Below are positions 4,490-58,588 of a DNA stretch of 64,000 bases, in pieces (position 1 is the first letter of the stretch; each line of letters starts with the position of its first letter). Source of the DNA: Halobaculum sp. XH14 (GTDB lineage Archaea; Halobacteriota; Halobacteria; Halobacteriales; Haloferacaceae). A model generated the notes under the pieces. It was given only the letters and a program-made list of their open reading frames with translations, ran no database searches and was not told the origin of the DNA. A program made the position numbers and the translations under genes. Location of the stretch: positions 868,001-932,000 of the forward strand of contig NZ_CP134949.1 in NCBI RefSeq assembly GCF_032116555.1. Reading direction: 5' to 3'.

Positions 4490-4579
4490 CTCGTCGGTGA
4501 GTTCGGGTCGCTGATCGGTTCGTCTTCTTTTGGCGTGTCTCCTGCTGTGGGCAGCACCACAGCCACCGTGGTCACGACC

Positions 4580-4795
4580 GCGGAAGCCCCCGCGGCTCTC
4601 GGCTCGGGGGCCTCGCTGCGCTTCTCGTCGCTCGCTACACTCGCTCCTGCGGTGCTTGCGTCGTCCGCCGTTCACGAGAGCTCTGCTCTCGTGAGATCGC
4701 GGGAGTGTCCCGCGAACGATGCAAGCACCGCAGCGACCGCAGGGAACGAGGAGCGCAGGGAGGCGCGCGAGCGCAGAAGCCGGGGGCTTTCGACC
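4580..4795. repeat. palindromic hairpin-array element downstream of nrdJ
   Basis: The gap 4490-4909 holds no gene. Its two ends are imperfect inverted repeats of about 80 bases, running from GAAGCCCCCGCGG near 4582 to GGGGGCTTTCG ending near 4792, with GGTGCTTGCGTCG on the left matching CGATGCAAGCACC on the right. The centre has two perfect hairpins with three-base loops: CACGAGAGC-TCT-GCTCTCGTG (4673-4693) and CGCGGGA-GTG-TCCCGCG (4698-4714). End motifs and module words recur at 6591, 37624 and 56677, so this is one member of a dispersed family. A T-rich stretch just after nrdJ (near 4520) may terminate transcription. Confidence 0.7.
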
Positions 4796-6508: not shown

Positions 6509-6590
6509 TCCGTTCGATGTGTGGAATGGGTCGTCGGTACGGGGGGTCGAGTGGTTCGAGACGGGGCGGTTGGAAACACGAAGTACGGTT

Positions 6591-6790
6591 CGAAAGCCCC
6601 CGCGGCGCTCGGCTCCCGCGAACCGCGCTGTGCTCCTCGTCGCTCGGCCTCCGGCCTCCCTCCTGCGGTGCTTACGGGTTCGGGGTTCGCCGACCGCCGC
6701 GGCCCCTTTCAGTCCCGCCCGACAGCACCCGCCCCGCACAGCCACACGCCTCCCCAGCCGATTCGCTCGCTGCGCTCACTCATCCCTCGA
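6591..6790 (-). repeat. dispersed GC-rich element in the ahbAB-sirC gap
   Basis: The 350-base gap between the two genes is occupied by a reverse-strand copy of the dispersed family. It starts with the shared end motif CGAAAGCCCCCGCGG (6591-6605), carries the reverse complement of the core GGGACTGAAAGGGGCCGC near 6697-6715, and continues with CCTCCCCAGCCGATTCGCTCG near 6750, a module found again at 56830 and, inverted, at 60720. No credible protein is encoded here. Confidence 0.65.
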
Positions 6791-37330: not shown

Positions 37331-37624
37331 GGCGCGTGACGGCGAGCCCCAGGGGCGAGCAGACGCGCGCGAGGGACGAGCACCGGAGCGTTCGCGACCG
37401 GAGGGAGCGCACGCGAGGAGCACAGGAGGTTGGGAAGGGTGAGGTGTGGTTGGGTGGGACTGAAAGGGGCCGCGGCTGTCGGCGACGGCGGACCCGTCAA
37501 GCACCGTGGTTCGAGAGAGCGGAGCTCTCTCGTCATCACGAAAATCTTCGATTTTCGAACGACAGCGAGCTTGCGAGCGAGGAGCGCAGCGGCCGCACCG
37601 AGCCGAGAGGAGCGGGGGCTTTCG
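37331..37624 (+). repeat. full-length dispersed element between the amidohydrolase and DUF5830-like genes
   Basis: About 300 bases with all modules in order: GCGCGTGACGGCGAGCCCC (near 37333), GAGGGACGAGCACCGGAGCG, GAGGAGCACAGGAGG, the core GGGACTGAAAGGGGCCGC (37456-37473), a 69-base block (37495-37563) identical to one at 57067-57135, and the closing GGGGGCTTTCG (37614-37624). The block holds two triloop hairpins: CGAGAGAGC-GGA-GCTCTCTCG (37512-37532) and CGAAAATC-TTC-GATTTTCG (37539-37557). Nothing in 37230-37728 looks like a protein gene. Confidence 0.75.
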
Positions 37625-37728
37625 CGGTCGTCGTGCTGATCGCTTCGGAAGCGGCAGCAGGTGATTCACATCGCACCGATGGGCGCGGCGTTTAAGCGGC
37701 CGCTCGAACCAACAGTACGACACAAGCC

Positions 37729-55612: not shown

Positions 55613-56529
55613 TGGTCGACGCCGAGTCGTTCATCGAGGAGGCGACCGCCGAGATCGCCGAGGCGGTCGGCGAGTCGAACGCGGTCATCGCGCTCTCGGG
55701 CGGGGTGGACTCGTCGGTCGCGGCCGCGCTCGCCTACCGTGCCATCGGCGACCGGCTCACTCCGGTGTACGTCGACACCGGGCTGATGCGGAAGGGCGAG
55801 ACCGAGTCCATCCGCGAGACGTTCGCGTTCATGGACTCGCTCCGGGTCGTCGAGGCGGGGGACCGCTTCCTCGACGCGCTGGCGGGCGTCACCGACCCCG
55901 AGGAGAAGCGCCACGTCATCGGCGAGGGGTTCATCCGCGAGTTCGAGCGCGAGGCGACGGAGGCCGACGCCGACTACCTCGTGCAGGGAACGATCTACCC
56001 CGACCGCATCGAGAGCGAGGGGAACATCAAGTCCCACCACAACGTCGGGGGGCTGCCGGACGTGGTCGACTTCGAGGGCATCGTCGAACCGGTCCGCGAC
56101 CTGTACAAGGACGAGGTCCGGGAGGTCGCCCGCGCGCTCGACCTGGAGGAAGTCGTCTCCGAGCGCATGCCGTTCCCCGGCCCCGGCCTGGCGGTCCGCA
56201 TCGTCGGCGAGGTGACCCGCGAGAAGGCCGCGGTGGCCCGCGAGGCGTGCCACGTCGTCGAGGAGGAGACGGAAGAACACGACCCCTGGCAGGCGTTCGC
56301 GGCCGTGCTCGGCAAGGCGACCGGCGTGAAGGGCGACAACCGCGTCCACGGCTGGGTGGTGGCGGTCCGGTCGGTCGAATCACGGGATGGGATGACCGCC
56401 CGGGCGCAGGAACTCCCGTGGGAGACGCTCCAGCGCATCCAGTCGCGGATCACGGGCGAGAACGAGAACGTCGCTCGGGTGGTGTACGACGTGACCCACA
56501 AGCCGCCCGCGACGATCGAGTACGAGTAG
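55612..56529 (+). CDS. guaA: GMP synthase, ATP-pyrophosphatase subunit
   Basis: A 305-aa archaeal GMP synthase subunit B: the ATP pyrophosphatase loop is [20 protein letters not shown]; the dimerisation part has [19 protein letters not shown] and closes [17 protein letters not shown]. It lacks the glutaminase domain, which archaea encode as a separate gene that is not in this window. Coupling to pyrG by TGATG and a perfect ribosome-binding site suggests joint control of CTP and GMP supply. A T-run (56549-56555) after the stop is a likely terminator. Confidence 0.96.
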
Positions 56530-56676
56530 TTCTCTTCGTAGGGGACGGGTTTTTCCGTCGGTGCTTCGAACTTTTGGGGGGTTCTCGGCCTGTGGCGACT
56601 GGTTCGGAAGCCTCTGTGATTCTCCGTTCTCCAGGTGTCGCATTCGGTCCTGTCCCGGGTGTCGTGACGGCTACCT

Positions 56677-56885
56677 CGAAAGCCCCCGCCTGGCTACGCT
56701 CCCGCGGCACGCTCCGTGCTCCTCGCGCTCGCTTCGCTCGCGCTGTGGTGCTTGAGGCGCCGGGGTTCGCGTACCCAGCCGGCCCCTTTCAGTCCCACCC
56801 ACCCCGACCGCCCCGCACCACAGCCTCCCCAGCCGATTCGCTCGTCGCTCCGCTCCTCGCTCATCCCTCGCGCGCGCCGACCGCA
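56677..56885 (-). repeat. dispersed element, inverted copy
   Basis: Opens with the shared end CGAAAGCCCCCGCC (56677-56690), holds the inverted core GGCCCCTTTCAGTCCC near 56781-56796, and the CTCCCCAGCCGATTCGCTCG module near 56830. It is the first of two elements back to back in the 800-base gap 56530-57331; no gene lies in that gap. Confidence 0.65.
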
Positions 56886-56900
56886 CCGGTTGGACAGAGT

Positions 56901-57196
56901 CACGTGGCGCGCGGCGGTCGAGCGCTAGCGAGACCGCTCGTGCGAGGGACGAGCATCGCAGCGACCGAAGGGAGCGAGAAGCGCAGGAGGCTGGGGAGGA
57001 TGAGGTGCTGTGCGGTTGCGGTGGGTGGGACTGAAAGGGGCCGCGGCGCTCGACGACGGCGCGGACCGTCAAGCACCGTGGTTCGAGAGAGCGGAGCTCT
57101 CTCGTCATCACGAAAATCTTCGATTTTCGAACGACTCCGCTCGCGTGAGCCTCGCACGAGCGGTCTCGCTAACGCTCGACCGCCGCGCGCCACGTG
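56901..57196 (+). repeat. MITE-like element with 46-bp terminal inverted repeats
   Basis: Left end 56901-56946 (begins CACGTGGCGCGCGG) and right end 57151-57196 (ends CCGCGCGCCACGTG) are inverted copies with one mismatch in 46 bases. Inside are the core GGGACTGAAAGGGGCCGC (57027-57044), the 69-base block identical to 37495-37563, and its hairpins CGAGAGAGC-GGA-GCTCTCTCG (57084-57104) and CGAAAATC-TTC-GATTTTCG (57111-57129). No flanking target duplication is evident. The element codes for no recognisable transposase. Confidence 0.75.
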
Positions 57197-57331
57197 GCTC
57201 GTCCAGTCGAGTGCGGTCGGCGCGTGCAGGCGGGTCGCCGTGCTCGCGAGCGAACGTGGAACCGGGGACGAACTCACGCCGACCACGGAACGAGAGGGCA
57301 TTTTACAACCACACGCCGGCAACCCCAGGGT

Positions 57332-58588
57332 ATGACAGCCGATCGCACGAGCGCCGGGTTCAAGCGGCGAACCCGTCTCGCCGAGGCGCGAACGACCCTT
57401 CTCGAGGCCGTCCAGCGCCACGGGCGAACCGAGCAGGTTCCCCTCACGGAGGCCGACGGCCGCGCGGTCGCCGGGACCGTGAGCGCGCCGCGGGCCGTCC
57501 CGGCCTACGACCGGGCCGCGATGGACGGCTGGGCGGTGCGAGCAGAGGACACCTTCGGCGCGTCGGGGCGCTCGCCGGCGGTGCTCCGGGCGAGCGACGG
57601 CGCGGCCGTCCCGAACGGGGCCGTGCGCGTCCAGACCGGCGAGGAACTGCCCGACGGCGCGGACGCCGTCGTCGCGGTCGAGGGGACCGAGGAACTCGGC
57701 ACCGAAGTCGAGGTGTTCGACGCCGTCGCGGCCGGCGAGAACGTCGGCGAGACGGGCGAGGACGTCACGGCGGGCCAGCCTCTCCACGAGCCGCCCCGTC
57801 GCCTCCGGCCCTCGGACCTCGGCCTGCTGAAATCCGTCGGCCTCGACACGGTCGAGGTGTTCGAGCGGCCGCGCGTGTCCGTCGTCCCGACCGGAGAGGA
57901 GCTCGTGCAGGCCGATCCTCGGCCCGGCGAGACGATCGAGACGAACGGGCTGACCGTCTCCCGGCTGGCCGAGCGCTGGGGGGCCGACGCCACGTACCGG
58001 GAGGTCGTCACCGACGACGAGGACGCGCTGGCGGCGGCGGTCGAGCGCGACCTCGCTCACGACGTGGTCGTCACCACCGGCGGCTCCTCGGTGGGCGAGC
58101 GCGACCTCGTCCCGGACGTCGTCGCGGACCTCGGCGAGGTGCTGGTCCACGGGGTCGCGGTCAAGCCCGGGCATCCGGTCGCGCTCGGCGTCGTCGAGGA
58201 CACGCCGGTCGTGATGCTCCCCGGCTACCCGGTGTCCTGTCTCGTCACCGCCGTCCAGTTGCTCCGCCCGGTGTTGAAGCGCGTCGGCGGTCTCCCCGCC
58301 GGCCCGTCCCCGACACGTCGGGCGACCCTGACCGGGAAGGTCGCCTCGGAGCCCGGGATCCGGACGTTCGCACGGGTGACTCTCTCGGACCGCTCGGACC
58401 GCTCGGACCGCTCCGACCCACCGGGCGGTGACGGTCCCGCGCTCGCGGCCGACCCGGTCAGGGCCTCGGGGGCCGGCGTCCTCTCGTCGGTCGCGCTGGC
58501 CGACGGTTGGGTCGTCGTGCCCGAGTCGCGGGAGGGTGTCGACGCCGGCGACGCGGTCGACGTCGAACTGTGGGAGGTGGACGAATGA
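57332..58588 (+). CDS. moeA: molybdopterin molybdenumtransferase, MoeA (first copy)
   Basis: A 418-aa enzyme that inserts molybdate into adenylated molybdopterin. PAYDRAAMDGWAVRAEDTFG is the domain-I signature; GEELPDGADAVVAVEGTEEL, SVVPTGEELV, VVTTGGSSVGERD and VKPGHPVALGVV mark domains II and III, and LPGYPVSCLV is the conserved turn. Ser-Asp-Arg is repeated near residue 355 (RVTLSDRSDRSDRSDPPGG), encoded by 9-base repeats near 58385-58411. ATTTTACAACC is a TATA box at about -27. It is coupled to the second moeA by ATGA. Confidence 0.95.
   Translation: MTADRTSAGFKRRTRLAEARTTLLEAVQRHGRTEQVPLTEADGRAVAGTVSAPRAVPAYDRAAMDGWAVRAEDTFGASGRSPAVLRASDGAAVPNGAVRVQTGEELPDGADAVVAVEGTEELGTEVEVFDAVAAGENVGETGEDVTAGQPLHEPPRRLRPSDLGLLKSVGLDTVEVFERPRVSVVPTGEELVQADPRPGETIETNGLTVSRLAERWGADATYREVVTDDEDALAAAVERDLAHDVVVTTGGSSVGERDLVPDVVADLGEVLVHGVAVKPGHPVALGVVEDTPVVMLPGYPVSCLVTAVQLLRPVLKRVGGLPAGPSPTRRATLTGKVASEPGIRTFARVTLSDRSDRSDRSDPPGGDGPALAADPVRASGAGVLSSVALADGWVVVPESREGVDAGDAVDVELWEVDE

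Follow-up and report, generated by a model that had tools for sequence, protein, structure and literature searches.

The segment between guaA and a moeA-like gene

Between the guaA and moeA-like genes of Halobaculum sp. XH14 lies a segment (56901-57196) that begins and ends with nearly the same sequence in opposite orientations, which raises the question of whether it is a mobile element with defined ends or the product of some other event. Positions without a prefix refer to the window, the whole 64-kb stretch of DNA that was analyzed (C1:868001-932000 of a 3.68 Mb genome with 70% G+C). A preliminary description had read the segment as a complete MITE-like element bounded by 46-bp terminal inverted repeats. 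Our own reading, to which we assign a probability of about 0.7, is that the segment is no transposon but a composite scar, left when dispersed hairpin repeats recombined.

The left neighbour in the ORF list is guaA (GMP synthase), which ends at 56529 on the plus strand and whose 3' part (55666-56529), used as a query, picked up 80 guaA loci in other haloarchaea; its closest named matches are from Haloplanus and Halobellus, the best at 92%. The right neighbour in the same list (57332-58588, plus strand) is a putative moeA-like gene, with its start codon placed by eye and its function read from the sequence. A coding reading of the region was rejected since the ORFs, which lie on both strands, cross the repeats and were taken as spurious; the segment is read as non-coding, as first described.

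The inverted repeat itself, with its coordinates, was described correctly. Positions 56901-56947 match inverted 57150-57196 at 46 of 47 columns with one mismatch, and when the 64-kb window was scanned for arms of 24 nt or more (at most one mismatch, span up to 700), two pairs came up: this one with 47-nt arms and another with 26-nt arms (56780-56805/57018-57043). The longest arms in five first-order Markov resamples of the window were 16-18 nt, and the inverted repeat is far beyond chance. Its similarity is also wider than had been stated, as 56870-56947 pairs with 57150-57227 over 78 nt at 86%. Thus, 56901 and 57196 are not element ends. No direct target duplication is visible at the segment ends, in agreement with the preliminary description, and the flanks simply continue as inverted repeat.

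A search of the genome with a 361-bp segment, in which 40 of 270 candidates were scored, found the whole segment only at its own position. Among the same scored candidates its pieces had at least 96 genome matches (E≤0.001), of which a few lie within the locus itself; this bears out the earlier view that the inside holds modules seen elsewhere. The 17-bp end motif CACGTGGCGCGCGGCGG occurs 14 times in the genome at up to one mismatch (reversed control, 0), and at this locus alone does it form an inverted pair within 4 kb.

A dispersed hairpin repeat with conserved structure

The modules belong to a family of repeats. An alignment of 34 units from 29 loci, picked by similarity to the window, gives a unit order of head hairpin, G-rich leader, core (GGGACTGAAAGGGG to GGGGGCTTTCGAGG) and tail; three copies found by the core model (L224, L240 and L243) have a different front. 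The core is 125 nt long and folds as one long hairpin, with palindrome arms at both core ends. With 150 of 7730 candidates scored, the core model finds it at no fewer than 82 places in the genome, a few of these matches being partial, and across the order it is found in 118 of 145 genomes (our own included) and in 42 of 50 genera. Up to 24 candidates were scored per genome in this order-wide search, so the copy numbers per genome are floors. The listed genomes of one genus, g35 (G036, G047, G055, G063, G070 and G077), gave no core, and most other genera were positive.

The hairpin shows strong covariation. Specifically, a MAFFT alignment of 29 cores (A2) has two-sided compensated changes in 25 of 35 predicted pairs. 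Two further alignments, fitted to the model and including a few weak, partial or opposite-strand rows, gave 91.5% paired against 72.5% when shuffled for 87 distinct rows of this genome (A3; 444 against 133 two-sided cells, 0/500) and 91.3% against 65.1% for 46 rows from other genomes (A4; 373 against 103, 0/500). Helix 4 is paired at only 60.7% outside this genome (A4). Within the covarying helices a GGG/GGG internal loop is kept, with GGG on the left in 67/87 rows of this genome and 40/46 of the others and on the right in 74/87 and 45/46, and so is an A.A mismatch (71/87 and 29/46). Simple correction between the two arms would not preserve these unpaired features. An Rfam scan of positions 56000-58000 returned nothing above chance, the one match, MIR918, scoring 28.8 bits where the cut-off is 268, and no description of this core was found in the open-licence PMC literature; the family seems not to have been named previously.

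Core matches within 600 bp of each other in this genome form 10 divergent, 2 tandem and 0 convergent pairs; a different genus has one convergent pair (L249). Divergent pairs about 30-80 bp apart, with a centre like CGGCTGACCAACCGGC, were also seen in other genera (L247, L268, L270, L271 and L275). At two places (L022 1522 and L028 1709) the inner stem is gone and GGGGCCGCGGGGGC is left, apparently because sequence between short direct repeats was deleted. Besides the copy at our locus, the window contains core copies at 6588-6716 (minus), 37456-37627 (plus) and 4578-4700 (minus), the copy at 37456 bearing the 56-bp insert described below.

Downstream of the core its right end recurs, often at a spacing of 57 bp (12 of 36 spacings in this genome, 8 of 10 in genome G110). 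Compared with the first right end, the second is worse in 29 copies of this genome, better in 3 and equal in 4 (6, 1 and 3 in G110), and the third compared with the second is worse in 7, better in 1 and equal in 4 (3, 0 and 1 in G110), a polarity seen in copies that were picked in a way that favours the first right end. Several G110 loci (L318, L321, L322, L324, L325, L327, L328 and L332) have 57-bp units in tandem after the right end of the core; these units contain TTTATAA-like boxes and degenerate with distance from the core. A promoter role for these boxes was considered and dropped, as inspection by eye showed none in the tails of our genome.

A second, separate sequence is a twin-hairpin insert with the consensus GTSGTTCG-hairpin-CGTSATSACG-hairpin-CGAACSAC, its outer letters being fixed by the search pattern. 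It was collected in 27 distinct copies (29 rows) from this and other genomes, is 54-60 bp long (one row was mis-parsed as 74) and is itself nearly palindromic. When the insert (56-58 bp) is cut out of five core copies, the restored cores are 116-128 nt long; aligned with copies that lack the insert, they match through the CG^CAG junction at 81-89% (rows shown). This indicates clean insertion at CG^CAG without target duplication.

Read with these modules, the locus resolves as follows. Unit 1 has a complete core on the minus strand at 56674-56796, which the covariance model R1 matches over its positions 1-125 at 106 bits. It is followed at 56797-56900 (minus; limits approximate and set by eye) by the G-rich leader of unit 1, a shortened head and the centre that separates unit 1 from the divergent unit 2; here 56780-56834 resembles inverted 56989-57043, an arrangement that recurs in other divergent pairs. 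The left 'terminal repeat' (56901-56947, plus) is the head hairpin of unit 2, and heads like it are found 5' of many other units. Next come the G-rich leader of unit 2 (GAGGCTGGGGAGG...GGTGGG; 56948-57026, plus), placed by the 34-unit alignment, and the left arm of its core (GGGACTGAAAGGGGCC...CAAGCACCG; 57027-57078, plus), which is legible in the alignments; R1 reports no core here, and the right half is missing. The 56-bp insert (TGGTTCG-hp-CGTCATCACG-hp-CGAACGA; 57079-57134, plus) is followed by a remnant of the head of a third unit that hosts it (57135-57149, minus) and by the right 'terminal repeat' (57150-57196, minus), which is the head hairpin of this truncated unit 3. The inverted repeat then extends to 57227, and this last stretch (57197-57227, minus) is the centre of another divergent pair, a partial one, towards moeA. 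The supposed element termini are therefore the heads of two oppositely oriented repeat units. Furthermore, the insert has a core site as its left flank, as in L004, L008 and L009, and a head site as its right flank, as in L014, L194 and L197. This indicates that the segment is a chimera of two units.

Turnover and origin of the repeat

Comparison with two congeners (G001 and G002) revealed, among the orthologous sites viewed, that copies have been gained or lost. Specifically, the repeat is absent from G001 at two of these sites (L003 and L010), from both congeners at a third (L005), and from G001 at a fourth (L015). At L015 G002 does have a copy, placed and oriented identically, in which the outer helix is retained and the inner stems have changed. 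The most similar pair among 70 units of our genome is 91.5% identical over 425 nt, and an attempt to read the element ends from very similar copies failed for this reason. With presence and absence among congeners and no pair above about 92%, the family turns over without a recent burst. The core is also found in 13 haloarchaeal plasmid records, and in 11 of these no feature is listed at the matched positions. A virus origin was rejected, as the core had no match in the phage records searched and the exact patterns GTGGGACTGAAAGGGGC and TCATCACGAAAATCNNNGATTTTCGAACGAC had none in IMG/VR.

The closest published relatives found are the PATE and SMR elements of Haloquadratum, as given in excerpts of PMC3119063. 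In that excerpted account the PATEs (palindrome-associated transposable elements) of Haloquadratum walsbyi have near-terminal palindromes shared with IS605-type transposons and no terminal inverted repeat (PMC3119063); an excerpt of PMC10544981 mentions a PATE in Halorubrum lacusprofundi as well. Like these PATEs, the core is non-coding, haloarchaeal, numerous and palindromic and has no target duplication; unlike them, it is one long covarying hairpin with an order-wide range, in a genome in which no Y1 transposase was found. The 56-bp insert in turn resembles SMR-A by description, the likeness being drawn apart from the HqIRS42/43/55 sequences, in its inverted ends (GTGGTTCG / CGAACGAC), its lack of target duplication and its position inside the palindromes of other repeats, whereas at 54-60 bp it is half as long as the about 110 bp given there (PMC3119063). 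As tested against the definitions in these excerpts, the core does not clearly fit either the PATEs or the SMRs.

Bacterial REP and BIME sequences are interspersed palindromic repeats that are intergenic and structured and occur as many diverged copies and inverted pairs. The core shares these features, and differs in its much longer unit and its archaeal host; no associated TnpA-REP gene was found in the genome.

How the family first spread is a question on which we hold only a tentative preference, for a hairpin-mediated, PATE-like spread as DNA. It is possible, if somewhat doubtful, that the core is more specifically a PATE-like non-autonomous single-stranded-DNA element recognised at its hairpin by an IS200/IS605-type transposase. 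Its palindromes, lack of target duplication and lack of coding capacity would fit such an element, as would its variable presence between congeners and its copies on plasmids. Against this, a whole-genome search for Y1_Tnp (PF01797), in which the positive control Haloferax volcanii was detected, found none, and the TnpB-type family (PF07282) had a single match (C1:488790-488990) outside the window; the similarity ceiling among the 70 units likewise argues against a recent burst. An IS200/IS605 origin proper was set aside on the same absence of Y1 and single TnpB. The statement in the preliminary description that the window has no transposase holds for these two families, which are the ones searched.

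That the core is instead a structured RNA made by transcription, or an RNA element with a regulatory role that was copied around the genome, is unlikely. Covariation in every test and the GGG/GGG loop and A.A mismatch conserved within covarying helices speak for an RNA. In the main helix G-U pairs also exceed A-C pairs on the G-rich strand (35 vs 18 and 18 vs 6), a weak hint at that strand which is possibly biased by the strand of the model and comes from paralogues that are not independent. Orientation to flanking genes is random, however: among 30 matches at 27 distinct loci, the left neighbour is on the same strand in 15 and the opposite strand in 14, and the right neighbour in 15 and 13. 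With the crude gene finder used for these counts, 5 of the 30 matches overlap a predicted ORF; a gene-coupled regulatory element was rejected on the random orientation. The gain or loss of copies between congeners and the lack of an Rfam match above chance also argue against an RNA.

A more far-reaching proposal, which we regard as speculative and unlikely, is that the core, as a covarying 125-nt hairpin whose G-rich internal loop is invariant, is the founder of a Halobacteriales-wide class of self-spreading structured nucleic acids. Its right end would be copied serially as 57-bp units, the newest beside the core; the copies would serve as a substrate for rearrangement; and a dedicated enzyme would recognise the folded strand.

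The locus lies at an inversion breakpoint

When 28-kb stretches were compared by blastn, C1:922196-924538 was collinear with G001 and C1:925290-946014 was inverted relative to G001 1781130-1759802, an inversion of 20.7 kb in which one 220-nt piece aligns in the other sense. The interval between the two blocks, C1:924538-925290, is window 56538-57290 (collinear up to the first position and inverted from the second) and is the repeat locus. A core copy is present at all four breakpoints, two per genome. In our genome these are 924674-924796 and 946039-946216, both on the minus strand, and in G001 they are mutually inverted, at 1759720-1759834 (plus, beside guaA, at 46.9 bits only) and 1781188-1781317 (minus).

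The arrangement in our genome is the changed one. The gene that follows guaA in G001 and G002 is found here reversed at the far breakpoint (C1:945573-945876). In 68 of the 80 loci from other haloarchaea this same small gene lies no more than 1.5 kb after guaA when a gap above 0 is required, and in 73 when five more loci at a gap of 0 or -1 are counted; it abuts guaA directly in Haloplanus ruber, and in our genus the repeat separates the two. This indicates that our gene order at guaA is derived and that, in this genus, the junction at guaA had acquired a repeat. Named by eye, the small gene in most of these haloarchaea (L060-L139) resembles a TrkA-N-type protein. The segment is also not fixed at this place across distant species: guaA and moeA are not neighbours in either congener, and the 80 haloarchaeal guaA loci gave no moeA match. 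In G002 the core model, at E≤0.01, reported no core next to guaA or moeA; reading by eye does show half a core after guaA, and moeA is elsewhere.

A second locus, C1:828037-828961 (L345), is a synteny break relative to both congeners with cores beside it. In our genome these are 828639-828765, 833434-833560 and 834025-834131 (the latter two in the region 833384-834131 of L345), and in G001 cores at 1651719-1651847 and 1674135-1674255 lie beside the breaks; G002 has a weak core (E 1e-4) beside one break and none near the other. Among 12 loci with two usable flanks, the flanks are adjacent (within 3.5 kb) at 8 in G001, not adjacent at 2 (L001 and L002) and unresolved at 2, and in G002 they are adjacent at 8 and not adjacent at 4 (L001, L002, L003 and L007).

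The genome thus carries an old, dispersed non-coding repeat, whose units often stand in divergent pairs, and a separate 56-bp insert that lodges at CG^CAG sites within the repeat hairpins. At our locus the front half of unit 2 (56901-57078, plus) meets the inverted head of unit 3 at one copy of the insert (57079-57134). We propose that inverted repeat copies beside guaA and moeA recombined and flipped the 20.7 kb between them, by host homologous recombination or by template switching at hairpins. Since both joined pieces start with the same head, the product looks like a 46-bp terminal inverted repeat. A similar situation is described in Drosophila for Galileo, where, in the excerpted account, inversions occurred between dispersed transposon copies (PMC2775673). 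The likeness lies in the inverted repeat copies at both breakpoints and the chimeric junction copies (PMC2775673), and the difference is that our repeats are short non-coding archaeal hairpins.

Several observations stand against a simple form of the scar. Both complete breakpoint cores of our genome are on the minus strand, so that the inverted partner needed is the broken unit 2. At the far breakpoint both flanks of the insert (L008) are of the core-site type, whereas a single exchange within the insert would predict a reciprocal chimera. No insert of the 56-bp type was noticed in the two G001 breakpoint copies, and together with L008 this suggests that an exchange within the insert may have happened independently. 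The low score of the G001 core beside guaA, the 220-nt piece aligned in the other sense and the G002 result also count against the simple form. Because of the same-orientation cores, the non-reciprocal far insert and the G002 loci at which the model reports no core, we claim the breakpoint and the chimera and not the exact crossover.

Local formation of the inverted repeat, by replication template switching at a hairpin and independent of the inversion, would suit hairpin-rich DNA with a near-palindromic insert; it is improbable because the left and right flanking modules differ, each having separate homologues elsewhere, and because the inversion breakpoint falls in this very interval. The near-perfect inverted repeat, fitting size and non-coding content would suit a true MITE, about 296 bp long, bounded by its 46-bp repeats and moved by a transposase acting in trans; this is very improbable, given that no second full copy was found among the 40 of 270 candidates scored, that the end motif is unpaired elsewhere within 4 kb, that similarity passes the proposed ends, that a target duplication is absent and that the site is a synteny breakpoint.

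Recombination between dispersed hairpin repeats thus remains our preferred account of the segment. A strongly covarying hairpin repeat is abundant in haloarchaeal chromosomes and, at positions 56000-58000 of the window, has no Rfam match; at least one clean inversion and one other rearrangement have such repeats at their breakpoints. If this is general, the hairpin repeat would account for part of the gene-order shuffling seen in haloarchaea, and it would be a warning that intergenic covarying hairpins need not be RNA genes.
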